57,853 nt of DNA from positions 1-57,853 of the forward strand of contig JACRPI010000011.1 of assembly GCA_016214075.1 (NCBI GenBank), in the 5' to 3' direction. Shown here piece after piece: positions 11,586 to 34,143 of this stretch. The position numbers were made by a program, and so were the translations under genes. Within the stretch, counting starts at the first letter, position 1, and each line of letters begins with the position of its first letter. A model generated the notes under the pieces. The model ran no database searches, was not told the origin of the DNA, and saw only the letters and a list, made by a program, of their open reading frames with translations. This DNA comes from Candidatus Woesearchaeota archaeon. Lineage in GTDB: Archaea > Nanobdellota > Nanobdellia > Woesearchaeales > DSVV01.

Positions 11586-11729
11586 GAAGCACAATGGTCG
11601 TTGATCCTTTTTAAAACCAGCAGAAAAGATGTTTACAAAATGTATAGTTTTTAGCGATGAGATGAAGTTTTTATGAAAAAAGTTTGTTTAATGGGTGTTT
11701 TGTTCAATTCAAAACCCTGTTTTTGAATG

Positions 11730-13495: not shown

Positions 13496-14083
13496 CTACT
13501 CAGTCACATTTTCTGCAACAGTTTCATTCGCTTCTTCATAACCTTGAATCTTCAATTCAATAATCTTACCGTGCGTTTTCAAAAACTCTTTGAGTTGTTC
13601 AGGAGCTTCTTCAGTCTCACTACACGTAATTGCATTGCCAGATTCCGTCACGCCAATATCATATTCAAGCATTCTGTTGACATAATATGATGCGCCTTTG
13701 TTGATTGCGCGAACATACGTCCAGCCATCGCCGTCTGCTTGTAAATTAAACATGCCGTAAAGCACTGCGATGTATGGTCGTCCGCGGTCATCTTCATAAT
13801 ACAACATGTTGTCCATAATGTAATGATCCTGTCCATTAAAAGAACAGACGTTGTACGAGCAAACCCCAGTGTGTGCAACCCCTACATCTCGTAAGCTTGA
13901 AAAGCAGCTGTTCTGATAGGTGAGTCCATCATCCCCGCAAATAGGAATGTAATCAAGACTGCATCCTGTTTCAGTATCAGTCGTTGTGGTATTTTGTTCA
14001 GTGTCAGTTTCGTCATCAGTTCCACATCCTGCAAGAAAAAGGAAAAGAAGAGATACTATTGCTATAAAAAGGAGTTTTTTCAT
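13496..14083 (-). CDS. Lipoprotein with Kazal-type protease-inhibitor domain
   Basis: This 195-residue protein begins with a lipoprotein signal (hydrophobic core ending LAGC, with Cys at residue 20) and a Thr/Asp-rich spacer. A Kazal fold with six cysteines follows at about residues 41-75: GCSLDYIPICGDDGLTYQNS and then CFSSLRDVGVAHTGVC, including the diagnostic CGDDGxTYxNxC. The rest (about 76-195) is an unrecognised globular part with two more cysteines. Kazal domains inhibit serine proteases. It is the last gene of the minus-strand run behind the murein hydrolase, 47 bases downstream of the 14130 gene. Confidence 0.85.
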   Translation of the reverse strand: MKKLLFIAIVSLLFLFLAGCGTDDETDTEQNTTTTDTETGCSLDYIPICGDDGLTYQNSCFSSLRDVGVAHTGVCSYNVCSFNGQDHYIMDNMLYYEDDRGRPYIAVLYGMFNLQADGDGWTYVRAINKGASYYVNRMLEYDIGVTESGNAITCSETEEAPEQLKEFLKTHGKIIELKIQGYEEANETVAENVTE

Positions 14084-14129
14084 GGATTTCAGAAGTATTC
14101 GGCGCTTTAAAAAACTTATGGAAGTGAAA

Positions 14130-15065
14130 TCATTCTAGGGGAAAATCAACAGCAAACAAATACACCGCGGGCTGTTGAATGGTCTTCTTTTCATCTCTGT
14201 CATAAACAGGAATTGCGGTAGAAGATTGTTTGCAGAATTTGTAGGTTGGCTCTTCAGAAATAGTGCATGCGTCCCGTGTTCCTTCATACAAAGTAAATGT
14301 GCTTTCACTTTCGACAGAAAGTGTCGTTCCTTGTTTATACAAATAAATAGTGGAAGAAGGTTCTAATGCAGAAAAGCTTCCTGAAACAGTGTCAGAAATA
14401 GCAAGAGTCATTGTATCTGCTACAAGCGGCGTTCCCTCGATAGCGAGAGAAGTAGAAGGAAGAACAACAGTCATGTCATCAAGAGAAAAGTGTGTTCCAT
14501 CATCTTCTTGGCTGACAAGAATAGCATATTCTCCTTCAGTATACAATCCAGACAACTGTCCAACGCAAGTGCAATCAGTATCTCCGCTTGCGCCACACGC
14601 TCTAAACACTTCGGTGACATCATAAAACAATGTTTCTTCAGGAGTTTCGCAATCTTCTCCAAGAAGCCACGATGAATACAAATCATCTTCAAGTGTTTCC
14701 TGAATGCAACTCTCTAATTTCTCTCGTTCATCACTTCCAGAAACACACGTTTGAATAGCATCGTAAAACTGGCGAATATCTTTTTGCAGCGCGTCATATT
14801 CTCCAACAATATTATAGTCTTCAAGAACGGAAAATGAAGGAGTAACTTTGTAGATACCAATTTGGGCTCCAGAACTATCAACAGCAATTTCTTCATCAGC
14901 AGTTGCTGCGCCAGTAATACTCGTTTCAGATTCGCGGTTATTATCAAATGCAACATAGCTTCCAAAAGTAAAAAGACCGAGTGTAACAAGAACAAGAAAA
15001 GTAGCTGCAAGATGCAAAGATTCTCGTTGTTGTGCTCGTGGTGCTTCCATTGCTTTTTTCCTCAT
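14130..15065 (-). CDS. Single-pass surface protein of unknown function
   Basis: I do not recognise this 311-residue protein. A basic N-terminus is followed by one membrane helix (about residues 20-40), then an ITGAA motif and a cysteine-containing exterior domain with four close cysteines (ACGASGDTDCTC). It lies 28 bases downstream of the M23/SLT gene and upstream of the Kazal lipoprotein on the same strand, so it belongs to the same transcription unit. It may be an accessory exported subunit of the pilin-like block. Confidence 0.75.
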   Translation of the reverse strand: MRKKAMEAPRAQQRESLHLAATFLVLVTLGLFTFGSYVAFDNNRESETSITGAATADEEIAVDSSGAQIGIYKVTPSFSVLEDYNIVGEYDALQKDIRQFYDAIQTCVSGSDEREKLESCIQETLEDDLYSSWLLGEDCETPEETLFYDVTEVFRACGASGDTDCTCVGQLSGLYTEGEYAILVSQEDDGTHFSLDDMTVVLPSTSLAIEGTPLVADTMTLAISDTVSGSFSALEPSSTIYLYKQGTTLSVESESTFTLYEGTRDACTISEEPTYKFCKQSSTAIPVYDRDEKKTIQQPAVYLFAVDFPLE

Positions 15066-15092
15066 ATTTGTTTTTATAAGTTTTACTATCTG

Positions 15093-16880
15093 CTATTTTG
15101 TTTTTCCTTCTTCTAATGACGCATACGCGTAATAATAACTCAGAACGCGGTTTGCGTAAGCGCGAACTTCTTTGACTTTTTTGTTTCTTTTTTCTGTTGT
15201 GCCGAAACTTTCTTCATACACGCTGGATGAAAATGCGTCGCTGTACACTTCTGCGATAAGATCTTCAGTAATCTGTGCAGAAACCTCATCCCAGGATGGG
15301 TCGCTTTTTCCTGTTGCGGCAATTGCTTTTTTGACAAGTCCAGCGCCGCCGTTATATGCGGCGAGGGAAAATGCAACTTGATCTTTATAGCCATTAAAGC
15401 TCTTCATGTTATCCTGAAGTAGCTGAACTCCTGCGGGAATTGCGCGCGAAGCGTCTGTTCGATAGTCAGTGCCAGTACATTTCTTATTGCTGCAAAGATC
15501 ATACTGATATGCAGTGCCTTTACAAAATTGCATAAGACCAGTACATCCAGTCGAAGACGCAGCGTTCGTATTGCCGCCAGATTCTGTCATGATAAGCGCG
15601 ATCACTAACGCTTTTGGAACAGAAGTTCCAGAAACAGAAGTTTCTATTACCTTTCCATAATTCGCGTCAATCTGTCGTAGCTTCTCTTTTGTCGATGCAG
15701 AAGGAGTGTAACTAATCCCACTAGTAGTCATAGTTGGACTAACTCCTGTTTGCGTTCTATAAAGGTTACAGAACTTGTAGATTCCTCCTTGCGATCGACA
15801 CGCGAGATTATTATTGTAATCATAACTGACAGAAGACGCAAAATAGCAAAGCGGGTTCACGCTTTTTTTTGTCCAGCTGCTGGAGAGTGTTGCTTTTTCT
15901 CCTTGCGCATTAGTAAGATCAGAAGGAACAGACGTGTCAATGATTTCAAAATGTAAGTGTGGATCATAAGCAGATGCGCTGTTTTTTCCACGACCTCCAG
16001 TGGTCCCAAGAACTTCTCCTTGCGCAACAATATCACCGACAGAAACAGAAATAGTGTCCATGTGCAAGTAAAGAGTATAAAGTCCATTGCCGTGATCAAG
16101 GACAACTCTCCCCCAGCGAACAGGCGAAGTGTCAACAACAGTGCCCGCGGCGGCAGCGAGAACAGGTGTTCCTAATGGTCCGCGAATATCAATTCCTGCG
16201 TGATATGTTGTTCCTTTGCTTGTTCCACTCACAACATCTCCTCCACGATACCCAAAGCAAGAATTCACGCGATGTTCATCGTACGCGACAGGCCATTGAG
16301 TGAATTGCCCACCAGAAAATGTTCCTGTTGCAGTTCCTTCGTGCGCAGGAACGCTGGTAATGCTCATTATAGGAATTTCAAGAGGTGCAGGAGAAATTCC
16401 AGTCAATCTATTCTCATCAAAAGTGAGGAGATACTCAGAGGGAAGAGGAAGAATGTCTTCATATGCTTCAAGATACGGAATAAGGGCGTGATCAAACGAA
16501 TCGCTGAGTGCATCTCCAAGTTCCTTCTCCAACTCATCGCCATAGAGCATGCAATCGCCACTGCCATAGACAACAGGAACGCCACGGTAAAAAGAGCAGG
16601 AAGAAGAATCCAGATAATTCGTTTTTGCAGTTTCCAAAACAGCAGCGCCATATGCTTGTTGTGCGCTCAGATCTAAATACAGCAACGCTTTCTCTCCTTC
16701 CGCAGCAGCATTCAAAACAGCAAGTTGTTTCTCTCCAATCTTATTACTCTCTCCTTCTTTGCTTTCAAATTGTTCTGTTTTCGCGGCAAGATCAAAATAG
16801 AGCAGAGTAAAGAGAACTAAGACAAAGAATGCAAAGAGAGGCATAAAGTATTGCGCTTTTTTATTTTTCAGTATTCTCAT
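15093..16880 (-). CDS. Pilin-anchored M23 endopeptidase and SLT lytic transglycosylase fusion
   Basis: This 595-residue protein begins KNKKA|QYFMPL, a prepilin-type signal, and one membrane helix (11-31). An M23 domain (about 200-315) shows the zinc ligands His227 and Asp231 (HAGID) and His308/His310 (HLH). An SLT domain (about 405-515) shows catalytic Glu433 in MTESGG, GLMQF at 448-452 and AYNGG at 508-512. Both domains look active. M23 enzymes cut murein peptides and SLT domains cut the glycan. Archaea have no murein, so a bacterial wall is the inferred substrate. It starts one base from the preceding gene and is co-transcribed with it. Confidence 0.92.
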   Translation of the reverse strand: MRILKNKKAQYFMPLFAFFVLVLFTLLYFDLAAKTEQFESKEGESNKIGEKQLAVLNAAAEGEKALLYLDLSAQQAYGAAVLETAKTNYLDSSSCSFYRGVPVVYGSGDCMLYGDELEKELGDALSDSFDHALIPYLEAYEDILPLPSEYLLTFDENRLTGISPAPLEIPIMSITSVPAHEGTATGTFSGGQFTQWPVAYDEHRVNSCFGYRGGDVVSGTSKGTTYHAGIDIRGPLGTPVLAAAAGTVVDTSPVRWGRVVLDHGNGLYTLYLHMDTISVSVGDIVAQGEVLGTTGGRGKNSASAYDPHLHFEIIDTSVPSDLTNAQGEKATLSSSWTKKSVNPLCYFASSVSYDYNNNLACRSQGGIYKFCNLYRTQTGVSPTMTTSGISYTPSASTKEKLRQIDANYGKVIETSVSGTSVPKALVIALIMTESGGNTNAASSTGCTGLMQFCKGTAYQYDLCSNKKCTGTDYRTDASRAIPAGVQLLQDNMKSFNGYKDQVAFSLAAYNGGAGLVKKAIAATGKSDPSWDEVSAQITEDLIAEVYSDAFSSSVYEESFGTTEKRNKKVKEVRAYANRVLSYYYAYASLEEGKTK

Positions 16881-16881
16881 G

Positions 16882-17388
16882 TTATGAACCTATTTTTGTT
16901 TGCACTTGGATGAGTGCGTAATTATCAGGATCATGAAGCGGAATGCGGACAGAGGAAGGGATGCTGTATGCATCGCCTGCGCCGCTTATTGCGACAAGCA
17001 GCCATCCTGGACCAGCATACATATCAAAAAATCCATAACTCGGTTCAATAAGAACAGCTGCTTCTTCCTCTCCATCAGTATTTCTAATCACGACAATCGT
17101 CACAAGTGCTTCTTCTTGAAGTGCTTCAAAATAATTTTCAGTTAAATCAACATATTCTTCCTGCAATCCATCATCTTCTGCTGCAGCAACAAGAAATTGT
17201 CCAAACGTCATTGTGCCCAAAGAAGTTTCTATAGGGGTTTGTGCATATAACAATGCAATTCTGTTCGCGTCAAGACCAAGTTCTTCTCCAGTAATTGTGT
17301 TCTCGACTTTCGCAGTCTTATAATGCAGAATAAAGAAGAACACAATGACAAGTAAGATAATCGCGATGGTCGCGTAAAAATCAACCAT
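16882..17388 (-). CDS. Pilin-like membrane protein, start codon unclear
   Basis: The ATG-started product has 168 residues with a helix at about 5-24 and an unrecognised exterior domain. In the same frame upstream, codons read KRFGKKGFATT before this Met. This would give the KKG|F prepilin-type signal seen in its neighbours, but the only start-like codon before the in-frame TGA is ATA at 17427. Either a rare ATA start is used, or the ATG at 17388 is real and the signal is absent, or there is a base error. It lies between two pilin-like genes and one base from the M23/SLT gene. Confidence 0.75.
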   Translation of the reverse strand: MVDFYATIAIILLVIVFFFILHYKTAKVENTITGEELGLDANRIALLYAQTPIETSLGTMTFGQFLVAAAEDDGLQEEYVDLTENYFEALQEEALVTIVVIRNTDGEEEAAVLIEPSYGFFDMYAGPGWLLVAISGAGDAYSIPSSVRIPLHDPDNYALIQVQTKIGS

Positions 17389-17419
17389 CGTTGTTGCAAA
17401 TCCCTTTTTTCCAAAGCGC

Positions 17420-17965
17420 TTAACTATTCGGCATCACCACATGGAATTGTAATACTCCTTGAGAGAGTGCGTCATCTTCTTTGATAAGCACAGTCTTATT
17501 GATCAAGTAATCAGTAGTCGAACCTCTTCCTTTCCAGAATGTTTGTGCAAGAACAATCCAGCGTTCATACCATTCACTATTGTACACCACTGTGCCAATC
17601 TTATTGTTTTCCGCATCAAAAAGAGTTAATTCAGCTGCGATAATATCATATTCTCCATAATCCATTTGTTCATTGAGTCGTGTTTCAAGTGCAGAGGGAT
17701 TTTCAAAATCACTTCGAAGAACAATGCCAGGATATGCGCGATGCAGTGTTTCATCATAGTAAGAAACACCTTGTTTCATGTTGAGCATATTGGCCACAAA
17801 AAGATCTACTTGTGTTTGCTGCACGTCAATTTCAGTGACAATATACATTTTCACAAGAATGACCATAGCAATCGCAACAAGGCAGACAATCACAAAGCGG
17901 TAAAAAAGGAAAATCCATCCTTCGTCAATCTGCGCTTTTTTGTGAAAAGAGAAATACTTAATCAT
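17420..17965 (-). CDS. Pilin-like protein with class III signal
   Basis: The start at 17965 gives 181 residues. It begins MIKYFSFHKKA|QIDEGW, followed by a membrane helix (about 16-38) and an exterior domain with a NSEWYERWIVLAQTFW stretch. It was chosen over the longer frame to 18265 because it overlaps the upstream stop by only eight bases (ATGATTAA) and exposes the prepilin-type signal. The family is not recognised. Its place in the operon suggests a minor pilin-like subunit of the same apparatus as the murein hydrolase. Confidence 0.85.
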   Translation of the reverse strand: MIKYFSFHKKAQIDEGWIFLFYRFVIVCLVAIAMVILVKMYIVTEIDVQQTQVDLFVANMLNMKQGVSYYDETLHRAYPGIVLRSDFENPSALETRLNEQMDYGEYDIIAAELTLFDAENNKIGTVVYNSEWYERWIVLAQTFWKGRGSTTDYLINKTVLIKEDDALSQGVLQFHVVMPNS

Positions 17966-18839
17966 TGTAGTATTCCTCCAATCCATTGGTAATTGCGCTA
18001 GTGAGCGCGCTACTCTCAGTAAGTAGATCAGTGCCAATAACAAGATGGACTGCAAGACCAGCAGTATTCTTGTTAAGGTTTTCTTCTGATGAAGCAAGCG
18101 GTCCAGTAAGAGAAGCATCCGCAAATTGGGAAAGAATGTTATTCTCAAACAAACAGCCCAGTTTCTCGCTTTGTTCGTCAGCAGTTTGCGAAATGTATGC
18201 CGCAACATCACTCCCTTCTTGTGTTGATAAAATAAGAACAAGATTTGTTTGGCTTGTGATTGCAACCTCTTCTTTATGTGTTTTCGCGAATCCTAGCTTT
18301 GGATTATTGAGAAGATCGTTTTGTACTTTAGAAAAGACAGTTTCATCACTCAAAACAACAAAACTCAGTTGCGTAGTTTTTGTTGAAGCAACAGAAGGGC
18401 AGCGAAGTTCTTTTTTTTCTTCGAGAGTAACGCTCCCGTGTTCTTCCACAGTAAAAGTTCCTTTTTCTTTGTTAATGTAAAACGCGCCAGGATGTTCAAA
18501 AACACCAAGTGTTTGGTAAAGACGTGCGTCTAAAAAGAAAGGATACGTGATTGCAGTCACAGAAGAGGTTTGATACACGCGAAGAAGGTTATCACTCAAA
18601 TCATACGAGTATGCGCCAACGTCAAACGAAGGCTGGCTGTAAAATAAAGTGACGTCTCCTGGGACGCTCTGGCTTGTTTCAAGAAGCAGCGCAATATCTC
18701 GCGCGGCGTAGGATTGTTCATATAAAGTATTTTTTTGAACAGTGGTGTGAAAATAAAAGAACACGCCAACAATAAGAACAAGAAGAATAATCTCTATAAT
18801 CACTTGATTTCCTAAGTTGAGTTGCCCTCTCTTTTGCAT
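17958..18839 (-). CDS. Pilin-like protein with large exterior domain
   Basis: This 293-residue protein begins MQKRG|QLNLGNQVIIEIILL, a class III signal with the hydrophobic helix at about 12-31. The exterior part is soluble with two cysteines (RCPS and LGCLFE) and an ordered alternation of strands and helices. I do not recognise a family. A TATA-like AGTATATAAACC about 25 nt upstream of the ATG (near 18860-18872) implies a promoter of its own within the 56-base gap after the SGNH gene. The next gene starts inside its stop. Confidence 0.85.
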   Translation of the reverse strand: MQKRGQLNLGNQVIIEIILLVLIVGVFFYFHTTVQKNTLYEQSYAARDIALLLETSQSVPGDVTLFYSQPSFDVGAYSYDLSDNLLRVYQTSSVTAITYPFFLDARLYQTLGVFEHPGAFYINKEKGTFTVEEHGSVTLEEKKELRCPSVASTKTTQLSFVVLSDETVFSKVQNDLLNNPKLGFAKTHKEEVAITSQTNLVLILSTQEGSDVAAYISQTADEQSEKLGCLFENNILSQFADASLTGPLASSEENLNKNTAGLAVHLVIGTDLLTESSALTSAITNGLEEYYND

Positions 18840-18895
18840 GTTGCGTTTTCGAGAGAAATTGGTTTATATACTTTTGCTGGATTCCATCTCACTTC

Positions 18896-20605
18896 TCAGC
18901 TCACAGAAAGGGAAGAAGCAAATTCGCTATACACTCCTTCAGCCCATGTTTCCGCAGCAGCTTTTCCAGCAGTGCCATGATTGTCAAAATGAACATCAGC
19001 GTCACAGCCAAAAGATCCTCCGTCAGGACAAAAAGCAAAGTCCGTATATTCTTCCGAATCAATAAATATACAACCAGAATTTTCTACACTTTCTTTTATC
19101 GCATCTCTAAATTGTTGATAGGTTTCAATGTCAGGATAATGAGGACCTTGAGGTGGGCCTGCCCAATAACAAGTAGCTCCTTGATTGGTTATTTCTTCTG
19201 CAACACTGTTGACGCTGTTCTGTATTGTTTCTTCAGAAGAACCATACCATTCATAGCCATTGCTTGCAAAAGTGACAAACACGAGAGAAGGGGTATGTTT
19301 TTCAATAAGATTGCTGAGAAGCGGAGTATTTCCAGAATCAACTTTTTTGCTGGAACCATCATCATACGTGTATTCTGCGTTACAAGCAGAACTAATAATG
19401 GATATCCCTTCTGTAAAGTATGATGGCGTTGATCCGCACACTGCATATTTATTTGTGGTGTAACCATCTGTTTTGAATGATGCGTAAAGCGTGTCGCCAT
19501 ACGTTCCCATAGTTTGAGAATCTCCAATAATCAAAACGTTTTGTTCAGAAGTTTCAGCTAATACAGAAGCAGTTGAAGTATCAGAAGAGTCTTCTGTTGA
19601 ACTCGTATCCGAAAGCTCTTGAAGAAGCGCGAGAAACTCTTCAGGAGTATATACTCCGTATTGTTCACTAGTATATCCCTCTGCTTGAACATAAACAACA
19701 GCATAAACAAAGGTATCATCATTGGCTGCTTGTAGTTTTGTTGCTTCAGATCCAGAAAGTTGTTTCTTGATATACGCAACAGCGTCTGAAAGTGTGGTAT
19801 ATGTTGTTATTTCATTCTCGGGTTCACGATATTTCCAAATTGTGCTTTCTTTGAGGGTATATTTTTTTGAAGAGCTATCGTAGGTGAGTTGTTGTGTATA
19901 GGAGTTAATACTCATAGCAGGTGTTTTATAATCAAGTGTTATTATTCCTCCAGAAGAAAGAAGAGACACAAGATCGTTACTATCAGTGGTCTCCACCTGT
20001 ACGTCACATTCTTTCGCACAAATCCGAACAGTGTTTTCAGTTTTTTTGAGGTACACACTTTGGACACTTTCCGCGCCAAGGACAAGCGCGAACGAACAAC
20101 TTCCTCCCTCAGTATATGTTCCACCAGTAAAAGAATAATCCTTACCAAACGTCTCTACAGTTGCGCATTGTTCAACGTCATCATTTTCTTTACATACTGT
20201 TGCAAAATCACTCGTCTTCTTGCAAAGACAGAGGCATCCTTCTGTACCTATCCCACACTGTTCAGGTTTGGTATTAGAATATGGAGAAGTAATAGCATAT
20301 GCAGTGCATGTTCCTCCAATAGAAGAAACCCCGCTCTGATACCCCACAATCGCATAATCTTCATCAACAAAAAGAGGATAGCTGCTGAACGAAGCACCCT
20401 CCTCCATGTTTGTAATGCTTGCGACAAGTTGTTCAAAATTCCGTTTTGTTGCTTCTTCTGTATCAGGTACAAAGACATCCCATATTTTGAAGATGAAAAT
20501 AGTGAGAAGAAGAATTGCTCCAACGCTGAGGACAACACGAATAACAGTGTCACTGGAAAGATCAAGTCCTCCTTGCGCTTTTTTACCTTTTATCATAGTT
20601 TTCAC
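18896..20605 (-). CDS. Pilin-anchored SGNH hydrolase
   Basis: This 569-residue protein begins KGKKA|QGGLDLSSD with a membrane helix at about 21-40. A cysteine-rich exterior domain (about 60-330) and a Ser/Thr/Asp linker (331-356) precede an SGNH/GDSL esterase domain (357-565). Block I is IIGDSQTMG (Ser363), block II Gly391 in VCGSTPS, block III FASNGYEW with Asn449, and block V DADVH ending at His539. SGNH enzymes remove acyl groups. Beside the M23/SLT gene, an O-acetyl esterase acting on murein or surface glycan is an inference. A TATA box at 20623-20636 suits a leaderless start. Confidence 0.9.
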   Translation of the reverse strand: MKTMIKGKKAQGGLDLSSDTVIRVVLSVGAILLLTIFIFKIWDVFVPDTEEATKRNFEQLVASITNMEEGASFSSYPLFVDEDYAIVGYQSGVSSIGGTCTAYAITSPYSNTKPEQCGIGTEGCLCLCKKTSDFATVCKENDDVEQCATVETFGKDYSFTGGTYTEGGSCSFALVLGAESVQSVYLKKTENTVRICAKECDVQVETTDSNDLVSLLSSGGIITLDYKTPAMSINSYTQQLTYDSSSKKYTLKESTIWKYREPENEITTYTTLSDAVAYIKKQLSGSEATKLQAANDDTFVYAVVYVQAEGYTSEQYGVYTPEEFLALLQELSDTSSTEDSSDTSTASVLAETSEQNVLIIGDSQTMGTYGDTLYASFKTDGYTTNKYAVCGSTPSYFTEGISIISSACNAEYTYDDGSSKKVDSGNTPLLSNLIEKHTPSLVFVTFASNGYEWYGSSEETIQNSVNSVAEEITNQGATCYWAGPPQGPHYPDIETYQQFRDAIKESVENSGCIFIDSEEYTDFAFCPDGGSFGCDADVHFDNHGTAGKAAAETWAEGVYSEFASSLSVS

Positions 20606-20621
20606 ATTTCAGTGAGAAGAG

Positions 20622-20783
20622 TTATATAAATTTTCGCAAAGAGGGTGCCATCCGATCTTTCGAGTGATGCAATACTTTTTTTCTCCCATATGAAATGAAG
20701 GTAAACCCTTTTTCTAAAAAATAACCCCATTCACCGAATTTCTCTTGCAATTTTTTTCTATTTCGTTTGATACTTCGGTTCAT
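20622..20783 (-). CDS. Possible small protein, 53 residues
   Basis: An open frame of 53 residues starts at the ATG that directly ends the conserved GTCAGGGGGACCCAT block of element copy E. It is basic and aromatic, starting MNRSIKRNRKKLQEKFGEWG and ending SLRKFI. The purine-rich AGGGGG could act as a ribosome binding site. Against it, its stop lies inside the TATA box of the SGNH gene, and the matching site at copy C has ATT in place of ATG. I would treat it as possible only. Confidence 0.3.
   Translation of the reverse strand: MNRSIKRNRKKLQEKFGEWGYFLEKGFTFISYGRKKVLHHSKDRMAPSLRKFI
20623..20636 (-). promoter_or_regulatory. Promoter of the SGNH gene, same core as at 24318
   Basis: On the minus strand the core reads CGAAAATTTATATA, centred about 22 nt upstream of the SGNH start codon at 20605. 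The identical 14 bases occur at 24318-24331 before the next pilin-like operon. Similar TCTTC-rich sequence follows in both. Confidence 0.6.
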
Positions 20784-20890
20784 GGGTCCCCCTGACAGTA
20801 CAAGGTCTGCTGGTGCGTGTATTTTCTTTGCTGCTGAGAAAATATTCGCTTTGCTCCTCCATGAATCGCCTTATTACCTTTTAGAATCCC
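20781..20890 (-). repeat. Dispersed intergenic element, copy E
   Basis: Read on the minus strand, the first block is GGGATTCTAAAAGG then TAAGGCGATT (20864-20890). It is followed by GAGCAAAGCGAATATTTT, AAATACACGCACCAGCA (about 20808-20824) and TGTCAGGGGGACCCATG (20781-20797). The last two blocks match copy C almost exactly. The surrounding 371-base gap holds otherwise only the promoter of the SGNH gene and the doubtful 53-residue frame. Confidence 0.75.
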
Positions 20891-20976
20891 TAAGTAATTT
20901 TATTTATTGAGATATGAAAAAACCAAATTCTGAAAATGTCGCAGACAATACGGCTATTTTTTAGAAAAAGCTTTAC

Positions 20977-21225
20977 CTATTCCTTTGTGTCTGAAGAAGT
21001 GGTACTTTCAGAAGTGCTTTCTTTGTCGCTATCAGTAATCCCTTCAAAAATATCTTTAACATCTCCCTGTTTCTTTACTTCTTCTTGAACGCCGCCAGTG
21101 GTCTCTCCCCATTTTTGAAAGACGCTATTCATGACAAAGAAAACAATGACCATGAAGATGAGTGCGATAACGAGGGTCACAAGCCAAAAGTTCATATCTC
21201 CTTTTTTTCTTTTGAGTATTTCCAT
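20977..21225 (-). CDS. Small pilin-like membrane protein
   Basis: An 82-residue protein begins MEILKRKKG|DMNFWL, a class III-type signal, with a hydrophobic helix at about residues 13-32. The exterior tail is short and ends in a Ser/Thr/Asp/Glu-rich stretch without cysteines. No family is recognised. It is the last gene of the operon starting at 24295, nine bases downstream of 21234. The tail is too small for an enzyme, so a structural or scaffold subunit is likely. Confidence 0.8.
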   Translation of the reverse strand: MEILKRKKGDMNFWLVTLVIALIFMVIVFFVMNSVFQKWGETTGGVQEEVKKQGDVKDIFEGITDSDKESTSESTTSSDTKE

Positions 21226-21233
21226 AATCTCAC

Positions 21234-21587
21234 CTATTTACAGCAGACTTCTGAAGATTCTTCGCATGCAGCAAAATAAAGTTGTTCCCCTATGCATTTT
21301 GTTGCACAACTACCGCCTTTCCCTATACAGGTATTAAGTCTGCATTCTTGATTTTCAGGACAAGTAAAGTCTGCTTTTGTTCCATAAGAGGAAGAAGTTC
21401 CCTGATCAACGCACTCTCCTCCTTTATTTTCGCAGGCACCAAGTTCCCCACTAAATAATGCAAATTTTCCGCCCATAATATAGACAACGACAATAAAAAA
21501 AATCAGTGCAAGTGCTGCTAACACAACAACTTGAATAGTCATGTCTGCTTTCTTTTCAGTAATAACCAGTTCTATTTTTCTCATCAT
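21234..21587 (-). CDS. Cysteine-rich pilin-like protein
   Basis: This 117-residue protein has TEKKA|DMTIQVV as its class III signal and a helix at about 16-37. A short exterior domain carries ten cysteines, ending in SSEVCCK. The layout (helix, glycine-rich turn GGKFALFSG, then Cys-rich tail ending VCC) resembles the 90-residue protein at 24686, so the two are probably paralogues. The dense cysteines suggest a disulfide-stabilised surface module. It lies two bases from the gene at 21590. Confidence 0.82.
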   Translation of the reverse strand: MMRKIELVITEKKADMTIQVVVLAALALIFFIVVVYIMGGKFALFSGELGACENKGGECVDQGTSSSYGTKADFTCPENQECRLNTCIGKGGSCATKCIGEQLYFAACEESSEVCCK

Positions 21588-21589
21588 GC

Positions 21590-22300
21590 TTATTCCTCAG
21601 TTGCTTGAGTATATAAATCTGCAAGTATTATTTTTGAAAGGTCTTCAATAGTAATGCATTCTCCATCATATTCTTTGTTATTGTTTGCATCTGTTAAAGG
21701 TTCTCCTTGATCCCAGCAGCCATTGTTGTTGGTGTCAGTAAAATCTTCTCCATCATATATTTCGTCATTATCAGTATCTTTAAACCATTGGTAGTCATGC
21801 TGTTGTGGAATATGAATATAGTTCTTTCCATCAATAATTATTTTTCCACGTAATCCTTGTTCTCCTCGCAATTCTTGCAGAGTAAGGATCTCAGTTAAGT
21901 TTTTATTTGATGCATAAGGTGCATATGATTCTTTTATAGCAGCGCATTCTTCATCAGACTGCCACCATCCGCATAACTTTTTATTTTCTTCAGAAAACGT
22001 TTCATGAAAAGCAGATTCAAGATTCCATCCTTCTCCGTATGCTTGTTTAATAATGACAAGATAGCCACTTTTACCATCTTGCGCTACTTTTTCTATTGGA
22101 ATATCTTTATCTGCGTCAATCCTCTCCTCATCAATGACTTGATCAGGAACAGTCTGTTCTTGAAATTCAAATCCAAGTCCTTCAAAAAATTCTTTTGCGT
22201 TGTCGATAGTGTTTGGGACGAAAACAAATGCAGCGAAAACAAGAAAGAATCCTGCAAGAATAAATAAAATAAGTTGGAAATTCAGTTCTGCTTTTTTCAT
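21590..22300 (-). CDS. Pilin-like protein with EF-hand-like calcium loops
   Basis: This 236-residue protein starts MKKA|ELNFQLILF with a helix at about residues 6-27. The exterior part ends with three acidic loops spaced like EF-hand or dockerin-type calcium sites: DTDNDEIYDGED, DTNNNGCWDQGEP and DANNNKEYDGE (about 175-218). Calcium binding is inferred from the motif. Its ATG overlaps the stop of the 48-residue gene at 22297 (ATGA), so translation is coupled. No wider family is recognised. Confidence 0.85.
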   Translation of the reverse strand: MKKAELNFQLILFILAGFFLVFAAFVFVPNTIDNAKEFFEGLGFEFQEQTVPDQVIDEERIDADKDIPIEKVAQDGKSGYLVIIKQAYGEGWNLESAFHETFSEENKKLCGWWQSDEECAAIKESYAPYASNKNLTEILTLQELRGEQGLRGKIIIDGKNYIHIPQQHDYQWFKDTDNDEIYDGEDFTDTNNNGCWDQGEPLTDANNNKEYDGECITIEDLSKIILADLYTQATEE

Positions 22301-22443
22301 CCTAACCAGTCCAGGAATTCAAAGAGTTTTCCTCCTTGAAGTTTGATAATAAAAAGGATGACAACAAGTCCAATCAAAAGCCAGATCAGCATGACAAGCC
22401 ACGTCGGCATATCTCCTTTTTTGTTGAATTGACGCATAGTCAT
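22297..22443 (-). CDS. Small pilin-like membrane protein, 48 residues
   Basis: This short gene encodes MTMRQFNKKG|DMPTWLVM with a single helix (about residues 13-34) and a brief LQGGKLFEFLDWLG tail. The signal KKG|DMPTW matches KKG|DMNFW at 20977. The stop overlaps the next start by four bases (ATGA), typical for genes translated together. A second in-frame ATG at 22437 is an alternative start. It is well supported by position and composition although very short. Confidence 0.8.
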   Translation of the reverse strand: MTMRQFNKKGDMPTWLVMLIWLLIGLVVILFIIKLQGGKLFEFLDWLG

Positions 22444-22477
22444 TGTTCTTGATCTCATTCTTTATTAATAATTCGTT

Positions 22478-23329
22478 TTAAGAAGCTCTATCTTGTTTCA
22501 CAGGCAACACTTCGCAGTTCAATTGGTTCAGCGCATCTGTGGTATATGGATAAAGCAAAATCCCGCTGTCCCAGTCCGCGGTTTTCTCAGCGCCAAGCGC
22601 ATAGCCACCAGCAGTTCCTGCGACAGTGCTTCCAGCGATCAATAAACCAGCAGGCAATCCAACGCCGCTGAACACAAGCACAGCGCCAGTTGCTAATCCA
22701 ACGCCAGCGCCAGTTCCTGTGCTCCATATTTTATTCATGTATCCTTTTTTTCCATACAAAAACAACACTGCGTAATCATCTTTTGTAGTAACAGAATCTT
22801 CGGTCTCTTTATCATAAAGTAATTGCAGCGCGTCATCAGATTGAAATCCTTGGAGATAATCAGTGTAAGACATCGGTTCGTGCGTATACAACAACGGTGC
22901 AGGATTATCGTCGAGATAATCTAAAACTCCAGAAATTTCTTGTGGTGTGCTGTCAAATTCCAAAACACTGCAGAGCACGCAGTATTGAGTAGAGCCAAAT
23001 TGTGTTTCAAACACTTCATATTGTCCTTCACCCATTTTATACCAGCAGCGGGCAAGCGCGTCAGCAGCTTCTTCTTTAATCTTCTCAGGATCAACACTTT
23101 CCACAGAAACATATTCTATGGGGCATTGCACTTCGTCATAGAGTTCCATGCCGCCAATGTTGCCGATTGCGTTAATCTCAATGCTTTTTCTGCAGGTGTC
23201 AGGAATGTTCTGCGCAGTTCCCACTGCTGCGGTTTTCTGATAAAAGATCAGCAGCACCACGAGAACAAGACCTAAGATAATGAGTCCTAACAAAAATTCC
23301 ATTTGCATTGCTTTTTTGTTGGTTTTCAT
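22478..23329 (-). CDS. Pilin-like protein, paralogue of the next upstream gene
   Basis: The start at 23329 gives 283 residues starting MKTNKKA|MQMEFLLG, with a helix at about 12-30. It was preferred over the longer frame to 23458, which would run deep into the preceding gene. The exterior part shares RCWYKMGEG, a C-V-L-C-S pair and PLLYTHEPMSYTDYL with matching segments in the 23343 protein. These mark a tandem duplication. Unlike that protein, it adds a second hydrophobic glycine/alanine-rich segment (GAGVGLATGAVLVFSGVGLP) near residues 220-255. Confidence 0.85.
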   Translation of the reverse strand: MKTNKKAMQMEFLLGLIILGLVLVVLLIFYQKTAAVGTAQNIPDTCRKSIEINAIGNIGGMELYDEVQCPIEYVSVESVDPEKIKEEAADALARCWYKMGEGQYEVFETQFGSTQYCVLCSVLEFDSTPQEISGVLDYLDDNPAPLLYTHEPMSYTDYLQGFQSDDALQLLYDKETEDSVTTKDDYAVLFLYGKKGYMNKIWSTGTGAGVGLATGAVLVFSGVGLPAGLLIAGSTVAGTAGGYALGAEKTADWDSGILLYPYTTDALNQLNCEVLPVKQDRAS

Positions 23330-23342
23330 GGTTCGGGATATG

Positions 23343-24164
23343 TTAGGAATAAATATAATCGCAAGTTTCCGTGCCAGTAAGTGTTTCAGTAGAGTAAACT
23401 GCAATTGCATGGCTTGGATCTTTCCAAAAATCTTTGTTAGGGGGAATAAAACTGACAAAAAAGATAGTATAATCTTTTGATGTTGTTAGTGGTTTAGTGT
23501 TGAGGTCATCTCCCACCTGAATCCACACATTTGTTGTTACTGGCGTGCCTGACGAAATACCGAAAAACCGAAGTATTTCATTTTGATCAGTAAATGCATA
23601 TTTCATCTCTTTGTAAAAATAATCATAATAAGTTATTGGTTCTTGTGTCTGTAGAGAGAGAGGTATTTTCGTCTCCTGAAGATAATCATATAGATTCCCA
23701 ACATCTTTTTTTGGTGAATTTTCAAAATGGATCTGGCTGCAAACCACACAAACACTATCAAAGGTGAAGGATGAAGAAGCGAAAGGATCAACCTCTCCTT
23801 CGCCCATTTTATACCAGCATTCGCGCATCTCCTCAGCAAAAACCTGTTTCACGTTGGCAGAATAATCTTCTTCATTCTCAGAAGCATAATCTCTCTCACT
23901 GTCATCAACAGTGTAGGATTCAGCAGAAAGAACAATATTTTTTCGAGGGCATTCAAGATCAAGAGTACTAATGCCCAAGCTAACATCCGAAATTTTGCCA
24001 GAAGCAACAACACTAAGTCTGCAGCTTTCGACATCTCCTTTGCTTGTTGTCCAGTCAAAAACACGAGCAGAAAAAAACGCAAGAACTAAAACAATGACAA
24101 CAAGAATAAGAAGACCCATAGTCACTTTCTGCGCTTCCACTTCTCCTTTTTTTCCTTGTATCAT
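23343..24164 (-). CDS. Pilin-like protein, paralogue of 22478
   Basis: This 273-residue protein begins MIQGKKG|EVEAQKVTMG with a helix at about 16-33. The exterior domain has ECWYKMGEGE, VCVVCS and a PLSLQTQEPITYYDYFY segment, each with a counterpart in the 22478 protein. Cysteine spacing is also shared, so the fold should be the same. The family is not recognised. It lies 13 bases upstream of that paralogue and 11 bases downstream of the 39-residue gene. Confidence 0.87.
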   Translation of the reverse strand: MIQGKKGEVEAQKVTMGLLILVVIVLVLAFFSARVFDWTTSKGDVESCRLSVVASGKISDVSLGISTLDLECPRKNIVLSAESYTVDDSERDYASENEEDYSANVKQVFAEEMRECWYKMGEGEVDPFASSSFTFDSVCVVCSQIHFENSPKKDVGNLYDYLQETKIPLSLQTQEPITYYDYFYKEMKYAFTDQNEILRFFGISSGTPVTTNVWIQVGDDLNTKPLTTSKDYTIFFVSFIPPNKDFWKDPSHAIAVYSTETLTGTETCDYIYS

Positions 24165-24175
24165 AATTATTCACA

Positions 24176-24295
24176 TCACAATCCAAAGATCATACTCAAT
24201 TTATCTTTTACACCAACAACGAGAATAATAAGAAGGACAATAAACAGAATAAGGACAATCATTTGTGTTTCCGTCATTGCTTTTTTATCAACCAT
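24176..24295 (-). CDS. Small pilin-like membrane protein, 39 residues
   Basis: The start at 24295 gives MVDKKA|MTETQMIVL with one helix (about residues 11-29) and a KDKLSMIFGL tail. It is the first gene of the operon running down to 20977. A TATA box at 24318-24331 lies about 27 nt upstream, so a leaderless mRNA would begin at this ATG. An earlier in-frame Met at 24358 is less likely because it lies upstream of that TATA box. It could be a major structural subunit because of its position and size. Confidence 0.75.
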   Translation of the reverse strand: MVDKKAMTETQMIVLILFIVLLIILVVGVKDKLSMIFGL

Positions 24296-24317
24296 ACATA
24301 TTTTCTGTGAAGAGACG

Positions 24318-24331
24318 TATATAAATTTTCG
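24318..24331 (-). promoter_or_regulatory. Promoter of the second pilin-like operon
   Basis: On the minus strand the core CGAAAATTTATATA is identical over 14 bases to that at 20623-20636. It is centred about 27 nt upstream of the ATG at 24295. The shared core suggests that both operons answer to the same basal promoter strength or regulator. Confidence 0.6.
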
Positions 24332-24492
24332 TATATAGTTGAGGACGCATTTATTCAAATCTTATTAATGTCCTCAACTATTCAGCCAAAGACTTTTTTG
24401 TTCGATTATTTATGTCTTTGGCTATAAAGAGCTCCACAATTGTGTTGCAGACATTTTCTCTCATTTTAACAAATAACACTTCAAAAAAGATT

Positions 24493-24617
24493 GGGGATTC
24501 AAAAGCACTGCAAGGCGATTCAAGCAACAGTAAAGCGAATAGTTGCCAAACAACAAGCAAATACACGCACCAGCAAAAGTAAAAAATGTCAGGGGGACCC
24601 ATTGCGTGAGCAATGGG
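24493..24617 (+). repeat. Dispersed intergenic element, copy C
   Basis: Blocks in order are GGGGATTCAAAAGCA and CAAGGCGATT (24493-24520), TAAAGCGAATAGTTGC, AAATACACGCACCAGCA (about 24559-24575) and TGTCAGGGGGACCCAT (24587-24602). The end forms a hairpin CCCATTGC/GCAATGGG with a four-base loop (24598-24617). Blocks 1, 3 and 4 match copy E on the opposite strand. It fills the gap between two pilin-like operons (24296-24685). Nothing else is visible there except the promoter of the downstream operon. Confidence 0.78.
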
Positions 24618-24685
24618 GTATTATTGAACTATAAAACCAAGCAGAAAATAAGAATATAAAAATGAAAAGAAAATAAAAAAATCAA

Positions 24686-24958
24686 TCAACCAATAACAGG
24701 AATGCAACAAACTTGACTGCTATCAACTTCGCCATCATCGTCTAAGCAACTTCGAGAATTATCTTGCACGTAACCAGACGAGCAGCTGTAATCGCAGACA
24801 TTGCCGCTAATGGATTCGCAGTTCGCAGTAGTAGTCGCAAATTGTCCGATCTTTCCAGTGAAGATAAACGCCAACACAACAAGCACTAATAATGCAAGTA
24901 CTGCAATAATAATAACGTTGATAGACATGCCTTGTCCTTTTTTCATAAATTGTTTCAT
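24686..24958 (-). CDS. Small cysteine-rich pilin
   Basis: This 90-residue protein begins MKQFMKKG|QGMSINVIIIAV, a very typical archaeal class III pilin N-terminus, with the helix at about 11-33. The short exterior tail holds six cysteines and ends QVCCIPVIG. The same layout occurs in the 21234 protein. It is a monocistronic gene between element C and the operon at 25026-27104, with a TATA-like GATTTAAATATCC about 40 nt upstream. It could be the main pilin of a thin filament. Confidence 0.85.
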   Translation of the reverse strand: MKQFMKKGQGMSINVIIIAVLALLVLVVLAFIFTGKIGQFATTTANCESISGNVCDYSCSSGYVQDNSRSCLDDDGEVDSSQVCCIPVIG

Positions 24959-25025
24959 AAAAACACCTCTTTTCTTATCTCATGCAGTTCAGGATATTTA
25001 AATCTTATTGACAAACATAACATTT

Positions 25026-25562
25026 TCAGCTAAACCCGCATCCTCCAATACAAAGATACACGTTCAAATCCTGTTGGCTTGGATACAATCGTAATGCAAA
25101 AGGTTCTGTTGTTCCGCCCATGGACGCGGACAAATTGCCACTGGAATAATAAATAATTTGTTGGTTGGGGGGTGCAATCGCAACAAATTCATATCCTGTA
25201 TCCGCGTATCCCCATTGATCAAGAGTCTGCGACAAAATTGTTGCGATCGTCGCATTTGCGTAAGGACAAGAATTTTGCCCATCCCCGCAAGTAATACTCC
25301 CTCCAGAAAATGGATTCTTCGCGCAATCGATAAGGAGATCTTGAATGGTGGTGTCATCAGTGCATCCAGAGGACGTTTGAAACAATGTATTGACAAAAGA
25401 CTCCACGAGTTTGCTCGTTTCATAACTCTGCGTCGTATCAGTCTTCTCTGAAGTAAACACCACTTTCACCACAAAAAGCAATGCAAGAGAAAGAATAACG
25501 ACAATAATCATAAGCCCCATCATTTCAATTTGTCCTCTCCTCAATAAGCTATTCCGAGTCAT
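25026..25562 (-). CDS. Pilin-like protein, third gene of the upstream operon
   Basis: This 178-residue protein begins LLRRG|QIEMMGLMIIVVIL with a helix to about residue 33. The exterior domain has six cysteines, including CGDGQNSC and a final CIGGCGFS, which point to disulfides. The ATG overlaps the stop of the 25559 gene (ATGA). I do not recognise a family. It is the last gene in the three-gene operon beginning at 27104. Confidence 0.85.
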   Translation of the reverse strand: MTRNSLLRRGQIEMMGLMIIVVILSLALLFVVKVVFTSEKTDTTQSYETSKLVESFVNTLFQTSSGCTDDTTIQDLLIDCAKNPFSGGSITCGDGQNSCPYANATIATILSQTLDQWGYADTGYEFVAIAPPNQQIIYYSSGNLSASMGGTTEPFALRLYPSQQDLNVYLCIGGCGFS

Positions 25563-26041
25563 GAATACACCTCAATAGTAATGTAGCCAAAACTATAACT
25601 GTCGGTTACTGGATCATAGAGCGTGACAGGTGTCCGAAACGGTTGAGCGCCACTGCTTTCTGCAGCGTAAGGATATTCATAGAGTACAACTTCTTCAGAA
25701 GTAGGATAGACAGAAGTCACCACAACACCAGAGTTTTTGAAAACAATGGAACTATAATACAATGAATTGTCTGCAATAGTTTCTTGCAGTGCTTCAATTT
25801 TCGAAAGATCATAACAATCGAAGACGACAGTTGCGTCGACAGTGCAGGGAATTTCCGCAAGATGCCGGACTCGTTGTTCGACAGCGATTGCGTCAAGCTC
25901 TTGCGCTTCCTGTAAATCTTGTTTGCCAGTAAACAGCTGAATCTTCGCGTAAAAAACCATTCCTCCTGCGAGAAGAATAAAGAAAATGATGAGCACAATA
26001 ATGGTCTCTCCAGTTTTTAGTTGTGCTTTTTTCTGCGTCAT
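25559..26041 (-). CDS. Pilin-like protein, second gene of the upstream operon
   Basis: The start at 26041 gives 160 residues beginning MTQKKA|QLKTGETIIVLII, with a helix at about 12-30. It was chosen because it follows the upstream stop by one base and shows the class III signal. The longer frame to 26095 overlaps the preceding gene. The exterior domain has two cysteines (IPCTVDATVVFDCYDL), compatible with one disulfide. No family is recognised. Confidence 0.84.
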   Translation of the reverse strand: MTQKKAQLKTGETIIVLIIFFILLAGGMVFYAKIQLFTGKQDLQEAQELDAIAVEQRVRHLAEIPCTVDATVVFDCYDLSKIEALQETIADNSLYYSSIVFKNSGVVVTSVYPTSEEVVLYEYPYAAESSGAQPFRTPVTLYDPVTDSYSFGYITIEVYS

Positions 26042-26042
26042 C

Positions 26043-27104
26043 TCAATACACCCGTGGGCATCCTTTGATTTGCGCGTATTTATTATTGTCTTCAAGAGTC
26101 GTCACCGCGTCCCGAACTGCGATAATATCTGTGTTCTCAGGATCAAGCGCTTCAGGAATTGCTTCTATTGCGTCTTGAATAGACTCTTCAAAATAATACG
26201 TGCAGTATGAAAGTTCAGGATCAGCTTCAAATGCAGAATAAAGCTGTGCAGTTCGTGCGCTATACACTGCGCCAACAAATTCCGCTTGATACAACGCTTT
26301 CTGGACATTGCAGGTGTAGAAATCTTTGTTCGCGGAAAAAAGTGCGCCAACAAGCAAAGGTAATCCCACATATTCAGTAGTACCATCATAAAAAGTAATC
26401 TCTCCAGAGTCTTCGTCTCCATCAACATACACAATGTCCCATGTTCCATCGCTTTGTGCGCCGAGTGTATCTTCTATTGTGGAAGTAGACAACGAATTTG
26501 CATCGAGAAATGCAATAATACGCACATAAGCATCATTTTTGTTGGTAATACTAAACGCAGATGCGCTATCGACTTTCACTGTCTCTTTAGTGATATAACT
26601 ATTTTCTGCGAGGAGTGTATTCACAGTATACGCAACACTGCTGTGGCTATCATCATACACAATAACATAACGCGCAGCGTCAGTAGTCAAGTAAAGAAAG
26701 TTTGCGATTTTGTAGGGCAGCGCCCACTCAAGCGACCATGTAATTAAGTTTGTTCCTTCAAGTTCTCCGAGCGAAAAGAGCACTTGTGTTTCTGTGGATC
26801 GTGCGATGCCGCCGCCAGAAAACTCTGAAGGACAGCCAAACGTGCTGCAATCATATGGTGAACAAGTAAAAGAAAGGGTGATGTCAGGGATTGTGGTGGT
26901 CATTGCAGTTTTTGGGCTTTCTTGCGCGGTTTTCATAAGGGACTCAAGTTGCAATACTATTTCGCCAGTAATTTTTTGTTCTTGTGTTCCTTTGTACCAC
27001 ATTGCGACGCCGACAAAGAAGCTGAGAATGAGTGCGCCGATAAGAAGAACAAAGATCCAGTTGAATTGCACATCAATTTGTCCGCGTTTGTTTTTTCTGA
27101 GCAT
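26043..27104 (-). CDS. Pilin-like protein heading the upstream operon
   Basis: This 353-residue protein begins NKRG|QIDVQFNWIFVLLIG with a helix to about residue 33. The QFNWIFVLI-G signature recurs at the N-termini of uncharacterised DPANN proteins in my recollection, which should be checked. The exterior part is large with a CSPYDCSTFGC cluster near 81-91 and no recognised catalytic motif. A GATTTAAAG box lies about 25 nt upstream of the ATG, so it is the first gene of the 27104-25026 operon. Confidence 0.86.
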   Translation of the reverse strand: MLRKNKRGQIDVQFNWIFVLLIGALILSFFVGVAMWYKGTQEQKITGEIVLQLESLMKTAQESPKTAMTTTIPDITLSFTCSPYDCSTFGCPSEFSGGGIARSTETQVLFSLGELEGTNLITWSLEWALPYKIANFLYLTTDAARYVIVYDDSHSSVAYTVNTLLAENSYITKETVKVDSASAFSITNKNDAYVRIIAFLDANSLSTSTIEDTLGAQSDGTWDIVYVDGDEDSGEITFYDGTTEYVGLPLLVGALFSANKDFYTCNVQKALYQAEFVGAVYSARTAQLYSAFEADPELSYCTYYFEESIQDAIEAIPEALDPENTDIIAVRDAVTTLEDNNKYAQIKGCPRVY

Positions 27105-33606: not shown

Positions 33607-33609
33607 AAC

Positions 33610-34143
33610 ATGGGCAAGAACAAAAAAGCGCAAACTTCAGAAATCTTTTTCTTTATTCTTGCGATAGTTATTATTGGTCTACTCCTTTTGTTTGGCGTTA
33701 AATATATTATGGAACTGGGGAGTAAAGTCAACCAGATCGAGCTTGTCCAGTTTAAGACAGATCTTGAAAATAGTGCAGATGAATATAGACCTGTGTATGG
33801 AAAATGGAAGAAGTTAACCTTCTCTGTTCCAGTAGGAATACTAAAAGTCTGTTTTGTGCAGCATGAAACATTTACTGCCGCATCAATCTATTATCAAGAA
33901 GAAGGACTTTGTAAAAATGATCATGAAGATTATAATCTATTCATGTGCAATGCCTGGCAAGATGACACAAGCAGAAATGTTTATACAGATCCGTTCGATG
34001 AGCTTGAAGTAGGCATTGATCTTGGTGCAATAGAAGTGGGAACAGCAGATCAAAATTATTTGTGTATAGACACAACAGATCATATTTTACAAGTGAAGAT
34101 GACAGGAAAAGGAGACCGCGCGCTGATTGAAGAATGGAGCTAA
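33610..34143 (+). CDS. Pilin-like protein behind the giant surface protein
   Basis: This 177-residue protein begins MGKNKKA|QTSEIFFFILAIV, a class III signal with a helix at about 8-28. The exterior domain has four cysteines and no known catalytic motif. It follows the giant surface protein gene by three bases and so is probably co-transcribed. It is the only pilin-like gene of the window on the plus strand. The pairing suggests a surface complex in which the giant protein works with a pilin-type subunit. Confidence 0.85.
   Translation: MGKNKKAQTSEIFFFILAIVIIGLLLLFGVKYIMELGSKVNQIELVQFKTDLENSADEYRPVYGKWKKLTFSVPVGILKVCFVQHETFTAASIYYQEEGLCKNDHEDYNLFMCNAWQDDTSRNVYTDPFDELEVGIDLGAIEVGTADQNYLCIDTTDHILQVKMTGKGDRALIEEWS

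Follow-up and report, generated by a model that had tools for sequence, protein, structure and literature searches.

What would an archaeon do with murein-active enzymes encoded among pilin-like genes? The question is raised by a contig of 57,853 nucleotides (JACRPI010000011.1, positions 1 to 57,853 of assembly GCA_016214075.1; the whole stretch is called the window below) from a Candidatus Woesearchaeota archaeon, on which a long run of pilin-like genes includes p15, coding for a fusion of M23 and SLT domains. We consider it probable that this operon specifies a type IV filament-like surface apparatus of the Woesearchaeales, in which murein-active enzymes that can replace one another are displayed outside the cell on a single-copy subunit (p15/p16). 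The assignment of the DNA to a DPANN archaeon, made in an initial annotation from the sequence, agrees with the named relatives, which are Candidatus Woesearchaeota and Nanoarchaeia.

The pilin-like operon and its conservation

The operon extends over positions 14130-27104 on the minus strand and comprises 16 genes with a class III prepilin leader (a count that takes in two mini open reading frames (mini-ORFs) and p14, the leader of which lies upstream of its first ATG) together with the companion gene p16. From 27104 down to 14130 the intergenic spacing is at most 67 bases, except for two gaps of about 370-390 bases. At least fifteen such proteins on one strand had been proposed for the block 13496-27104, the coordinates of which are correct; its lowest gene (13496-14083) is not pilin-like, being that of a Kazal lipoprotein. 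The divergent genes q1-q2 (27538-34143, plus strand) belong to the same syntenic set, their orientation in the window being inverted relative to p2-p16.

The leader pattern consists of a basic stretch ending in K/R-(G/A), followed by Q/E/D/M/F and a single hydrophobic helix; the test used for it approximates the published FlaFind rule and is not the FlaFind program itself. Over 82 loci, 407 of 481 operon-family genes pass this test versus 102 of 591 other genes, and the leaders are therefore not a product of chance. The class III signal peptide by which members of the type IV filament superfamily are recognised is thus predicted from the sequence pattern, and the combination that marks modular pilins (a pilin module with a module not specific to pilus biology) is found as well. 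The leaders support the view, already put forward in the initial annotation, that the operon proteins form an envelope-anchored pilin-type apparatus.

Per-gene profiles recover the gene order q1-q2-p2-p3-p4-(p5/p9/p7)-p11-p12-p13-p14-p15 in dozens of families. The p2 gene is present in 189 of the 236 genomes of the phylum (168/207 if only good ones are counted) and p13 in 118 of the 155 genomes of the order Woesearchaeales, while the module q2-p2-p3-p4 extends to a Pacearchaeota record (L114). Synteny with the pilin-like genes, which the initial annotation had proposed to look for in related genomes, is therefore conserved across the order. The window itself is contig C11 of a 1.62-Mb genome, 98% complete, and as this is a draft assembly of 46 contigs the block might be an artefact of a metagenome-assembled genome, introduced by contamination, or the cargo of a mobile element. 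We find this scarcely credible, as it is already contradicted by the same gene order in a genome consisting of a single contig (G020; L040 and L085) and in the dozens of families mentioned above. An rpa gene moreover lies near the operon in the loci of many relatives and on the same contig here (1811-2821), and the base composition (GC) of C11 is the same as that of other contigs. The operon is a stable chromosomal locus.

The two-half subunit and its enzymes

The M23/SLT gene encodes one half, the N-half, of a conserved pilin-like subunit built of two halves, and p16 encodes the C-half. Both parts are conserved, the N-half having about 180 residues including the helix and the C-half about 150 and a V/I-x-P-S-F motif. 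Slot-empty forms exist in which the two halves adjoin within one gene (e.g. L091, L098 and L118); in a congener (L027), N-half, M23 plus SLT and C-half make up a single protein of 897 amino acids (aa). A murein-active domain follows the N-half or precedes the C-half in all 24 proteins with a detectable half, a set retrieved by its likeness to the window protein, so that the presence of an enzyme in them is biased and its position is not; it lies between the halves in 12/12 proteins having both in one gene. The later census described below added two exceptions, with the enzyme after the C-half (M23 in L148, M15 in L126).

For this unbiased census, 60 loci were taken by p13 alone and hence blind to enzymes. 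A p15 gene is present in 55 of them, 29 with an insert of more than 60 aa, and a recognisable murein-active domain was found in 23 of the 29 inserts (17 by local profiles; L117, L133, L146, L150, L161 and L172 by Pfam). With L126, L148 and L169 included, 26/55 p15 genes carry such a domain. The families found in proteins with this slot are M23, SLT, M15/VanY, M74, NlpC/P60, Amidase_2, Amidase_3, GH108 (with PG_binding_3), GH25, glucosaminidase, 3D, YkuD, polysaccharide deacetylase and GDSL. Within the window's own family (f1) alone, the cargo is M23+SLT, M74+SLT, M74, M15_4 or NlpC/P60. Near relatives, as judged by their N-halves, can differ in cargo, L145 being empty and L169 holding SLT, and L176 holding SLT and L033 M23. 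Only pairs with starred support were used for this comparison owing to the poor resolution of the cargo tree (7 of 71 inner branches starred), on which 41 changes were observed against a mean of 45.4 for shuffled labels. On sequence evidence, one conserved subunit carries the enzymes as an interchangeable insert.

Most of the slot families act on muramyl glycans or on peptides containing D-amino acids, and the substrate common to these unrelated folds is murein. With about ten unrelated murein-active families occupying one slot, murein is very likely the substrate of the slot enzymes, a target that had first been proposed from the single M23/SLT gene and for which the case has become far stronger. 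In L057:6753-8999 the p15 slot carries PGA_cap (capsule-related, 176 bits) ahead of an M74 endopeptidase, and in L122:3087-7520 a protein of 1477 aa adjoining p15 has metallophosphatase, GDSL, M15, M23 and NlpC/P60 domains in a row.

The active-site residues of the window's p15 are intact, all those expected by the initial annotation having been located. Its M23 domain (88.5 bits in Pfam) has the zinc ligands H227, D231 and H310 (HLH at 308-310), the nearest solved structures being bacterial M23 murein peptidases, and its SLT domain (GH23, 75 bits) has E433, GLMQ at 448-451 and AYN at 508. Among the M23 domains fetched, 21/31 retain both zinc motifs (HxxxD and HxH). The slot M23 domains of L051, L052, L141, L148 and L061 have HLD in place of the zinc-binding HxH, possibly a variant metal site or an inactive form. 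The SGNH esterase annotated in p11 is weaker than first stated: the match to PF13472 (30.4 bits) falls under the Pfam cut-off of 32.9, and although GDS (361-363) and SNG (448-450) are present, the block-V Asp-His spacing is atypical. In its favour, the equivalent slot of L038 matches GDSL_2 at 58 bits. Pfam gave no matches in the other enlarged subunits searched (the p11 slot and neighbours of L043, L050, L057, L060, L058 and L037).

Such a collection of enzymes could also serve nutritional scavenging, in which murein hydrolases held at the surface digest the wall debris of dead bacteria and living cells are not attacked. The sequence data fit this as well as they fit a host-associated or predatory life; the cargo can be almost any murein-active enzyme, M15/VanY carboxypeptidases and deacetylases included, as digestion would predict, and Woesearchaeota have been described as recyclers of cellular compounds (PMC9723730). 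Against this, the cargo is borne by a subunit that is single-copy and belongs to a large conserved apparatus, not by enzymes secreted in bulk; we regard scavenging as unlikely.

Assembly machinery and competing explanations

The initial annotation found no assembly ATPase or platform protein, which is true of the window; both occur elsewhere in the genome, where it had suggested that they be sought. Two T2SSE/FlaI-type ATPases (PF00437) are encoded on contigs C35 and C20, each adjoined by a T2SSF platform gene (PF00482; the C20 match is sub-threshold), and an A24 prepilin peptidase is encoded on C46 (PF01478, 49 bits; FlaK_Arch, 68.5 bits against an equivalog cut-off of 330). The C20 locus (L071:595-10362), with an ATPase of 762 aa and a platform of 731 aa near three proteins with five transmembrane segments, resembles a DPANN pilus locus without pilins. 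A protein with 11 transmembrane segments in L039 was considered as a platform and rejected, since its sequence, as we read it and not from any database match, suggests a cation/proton antiporter that has a TrkA-like domain. Loci with a CpaF-type ATPase and TadC are conserved across cluster 2 DPANN (Hamm et al. 2024, PMC11291902), and in the 2016 census of archaeal type IV pili no cognate pilins could be identified for a nanoarchaeal ATPase (Makarova et al. 2016, PMC4858521). The genes on C35 and C20 are of the kind found in the DPANN loci, for which the filament proteins listed are FlaF and PilA only. The operon may be the missing pilin set for the DPANN ATPases, a pairing that we infer.

The extended N-terminal helix and globular head expected of a pilin are predicted for p2, of which the AlphaFold2 model (mean predicted local distance difference test score, pLDDT, of 89) has a helix at 7-62 followed by a beta-rich head.

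Several results weigh against an enzyme-displaying filament aimed at bacteria. About half of the p15 genes hold no recognisable enzyme, and the apparatus therefore has an enzyme-independent function. No ATPase or TadC gene adjoins the pilin operon in any locus fetched, a fold search of the PDB with p2 returned no match at E <= 0.001, its head being unlike any recognisable pilin, and the model of p15, built from 12 sequences, is poor (pLDDT 44). Likeness of the head is a weak criterion, pilin heads being highly variable. Finally, this genome codes for a class A penicillin-binding protein (PBP) of the PBP1a family (229 bits, glycosyltransferase plus transpeptidase, 746 aa; G000:C19, L074:8964-11204, plus strand), which weakens the case for a cell with no murein metabolism.

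Two explanations draw on these results. The enzymes could be aimed at bacteria while the proteins form a membrane-anchored complex, or single anchors, and not an assembled type IV filament. The missing ATPase in the locus, the unmatched p2 head and the size and diversity of the heads (up to 1500 aa) would suit this. We find it fairly unlikely, since class III leaders are conserved over the whole set, a peptidase, ATPases and a platform are encoded in the genome, and a bulky modular pilin has been modelled to fit a bacterial filament tip (PMC8179133).

In the other, the enzymes would be directed at the archaeon itself, remodelling its own murein-like layer or clearing a path for its own filament, much as lytic transglycosylases serve bacterial pilus and secretion systems. 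Besides the class A PBP, the glycosyltransferase domain of which is found in 6/60 genomes (this one included, and also the single-contig G020, L177), the YkuD transpeptidase that occupies the slot of L117 speaks for it. A search for the Mur ligases MurC-F found none in the 98% complete genome, however; the only PF08245 gene, considered as a Mur ligase and rejected, is FolC (359 bits). Because this is the only gene of Mur-ligase type, own-wall remodelling is unlikely, although the class A PBP needs explaining. PBP is absent in 54 of the 60 relatives, most of them with the operon, and the cargo differs from one near relative to the next, as would not be expected of a housekeeping wall enzyme. 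We judge self-directed action to be quite improbable.

If the apparatus does display its enzymes to bacteria, the subunits would enter the membrane, the FlaK-type peptidase from elsewhere in the genome would cleave their basic leaders, and one of the two FlaI/TadA-type ATPases, together with its TadC/FlaJ platform, would drive assembly. The giant Cys-rich protein q1 and other large subunits would contact a bacterial surface, where p15 (M23 endopeptidase plus lytic transglycosylase), perhaps assisted by the SGNH domain of p11, would break peptide bonds and glycan bonds in the wall at that point, and the opened wall would allow attachment, killing or uptake of cell contents. Contact with live bacteria, a benefit to the cell and the choice of predation over scavenging are points that we infer. 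More tentatively, the operon might encode a near-core, contact-dependent wall-breaching machine of the Woesearchaeales, its polymorphic slot being swapped to match bacterial hosts or prey. Archaea would then have their own counterpart of polymorphic toxin delivery systems, and bacteria, not only archaea, would be ordinary hosts or prey of DPANN.

Gene content and comparison with known systems

The features of the operon and its flanks are collected in Table 1.

Table 1. Genes of the pilin-like operon and adjoining features of the window (vertical order follows the syntenic set; a slash in a leader marks the predicted cleavage site)
Feature	Coordinates	Strand	Description
q1	27538..33606	+	Giant secreted protein, 2022 aa, Cys-/Asp-rich; hydrophobic N-terminal segment, C-terminal membrane helix and basic tail
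q2	33610..34143	+	Pilin-like, leader GKNKKA/QTSE; immediately upstream of p2 in many relatives
p2	26043..27104	-	353 aa, leader KNKRG/QIDV, four invariant Cys; most conserved pilin-like subunit
p3	25559..26041	-	Conserved pilin-like subunit, leader TQKKA/QLKT; alignment and synteny
p4	25026..25562	-	Conserved pilin-like subunit, leader LLRRG/QIEM; synteny
p5	24686..24958	-	Small pilin-like, leader FMKKG/QGMS; p5/p9 family, often several copies
mini-ORF	24176..24295	-	39 aa, pilin-like, leader MVDKKA/MTETQ
p6	23343..24164	-	Pilin-like, leader QGKKG/EVEA; paralogue of p7
p7	22478..23329	-	Pilin-like, leader TNKKA/MQME
mini-ORF	22297..22437	-	46 aa, pilin-like, leader FNKKG/DMPTW
p8	21590..22300	-	Pilin-like, leader MKKA/ELNF
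p9	21234..21587	-	Small Cys-rich pilin-like, p5/p9 family, leader TEKKA/DMTI
p10	20977..21225	-	Small pilin-like, leader KRKKG/DMNF
p11	18896..20605	-	Leader KGKKA/QGGL; pilin-like N-terminal region (recurrent in relatives) and C-terminal SGNH/GDSL-like domain
p12	17958..18839	-	Conserved pilin-like, leader MQKRG/QLNL
p13	17420..17965	-	Conserved pilin-like, leader FHKKA/QIDE; census anchor
p14	16882..17388	-	Pilin-like, leader KRFGKKG/FATT in frame upstream of first ATG
p15	15093..16880	-	Leader KNKKA/QYFM; N-half of slot subunit (~180 aa), M23 (226-320), SLT (419-527)
p16	14130..15065	-	C-half of slot subunit (VTPSF domain, residues 70-240), separate gene; leader atypical
Kazal lipoprotein	13496..14083	-	PF00050, 27.8 bits; 3' of operon, membership uncertain; not pilin-like

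A large gene equivalent to q1 directly precedes q2-p2 in most relatives, with homologues detected by phmmer in L044, L045, L046, L049 and L051, and q1, a partner gene of the pilin operon, may encode a surface adhesin or a scaffold. The p5 protein, matching PF16982 (Flp1-like) at an E value of 0.027 only, is a candidate for the major or repeated pilin, and p14 probably uses a non-ATG start. In L057, p12 is enlarged by Amidase_3 and M15_4 domains. The Kazal lipoprotein has one possible homologue, near the L041 cluster. An 825-aa secreted protein (9117-11594) is kept near the operon in L027 and L041. At 20808-20872 and 24512-24575, the two long gaps of the operon have an inverted repeat in common (21 nucleotides at 95%, 50 nucleotides at 74%), which may be a small dispersed element. 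The window's genus also has a second M23+SLT protein that lacks a pilin leader (L028:5415-6932 and L030:6947-8767); parts of it lie at the ends of two contigs of the window's genome (G000:C25:67-1155 and G000:C35:135-989; L024 and L025), and the gene was therefore probably split by assembly.

An order-wide apparatus with an almost entirely murein-active variable part points to bacteria as its target and names the genes to examine, which bears on the partners and lifestyle of Woesearchaeota. The operon likely supplies the pilin set missing for DPANN assembly ATPases, and the slot proteins make up a large natural repertoire of murein hydrolases of uncultured archaea.

Modular pilins, archaeal murein hydrolases and woesearchaeal GH23 enzymes are each known, and their combination appears to be undescribed: among open-licence papers, our literature search found no description of pilin-anchored murein hydrolases, this operon or the slot in archaea. 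Archaeal peptidoglycan hydrolases including M23 have been reported, also from Nanoarchaeota, and two from Halogranum kill bacteria (Strock et al. 2025, PMC12352652). Both that work and ours concern murein hydrolases, M23 among them, encoded by archaea, but the zoocin-like ones tested consist of M23 and peptidoglycan-binding domains and the main text does not contain the word "pilin", whereas here the enzymes belong, as subunits, to a conserved pilin-type operon. In Woesearchaeota of predatory appearance, GH23 lytic transglycosylases were noted (Vigneron et al. 2022, PMC9723730), that is, in the same lineage, with the same SLT/GH23 domain and the same proposal of attack on bacterial walls; these were CAZy matches, however, in a main text without words beginning with "pili", and the operon, the slot and the other enzyme classes were not described.

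The closest parallel is with the modular type IV pilins, known from PilB and PilC of Streptococcus sanguinis and a survey of bacteria (PMC8179133). In these, a minor pilin that has a class III signal peptide bears a grafted functional module so that the filament can display it, and many different modules have been used in evolution. They are bacterial and their modules serve mostly for adhesion (with a mention of the peptidases S74 and M26), whereas the woesearchaeal operon is archaeal, has its module between the two halves of one subunit, and nearly all of its recognisable modules are murein-active. The operon works like a modular pilin, and extends that idea to archaea, with enzymes replacing adhesins.

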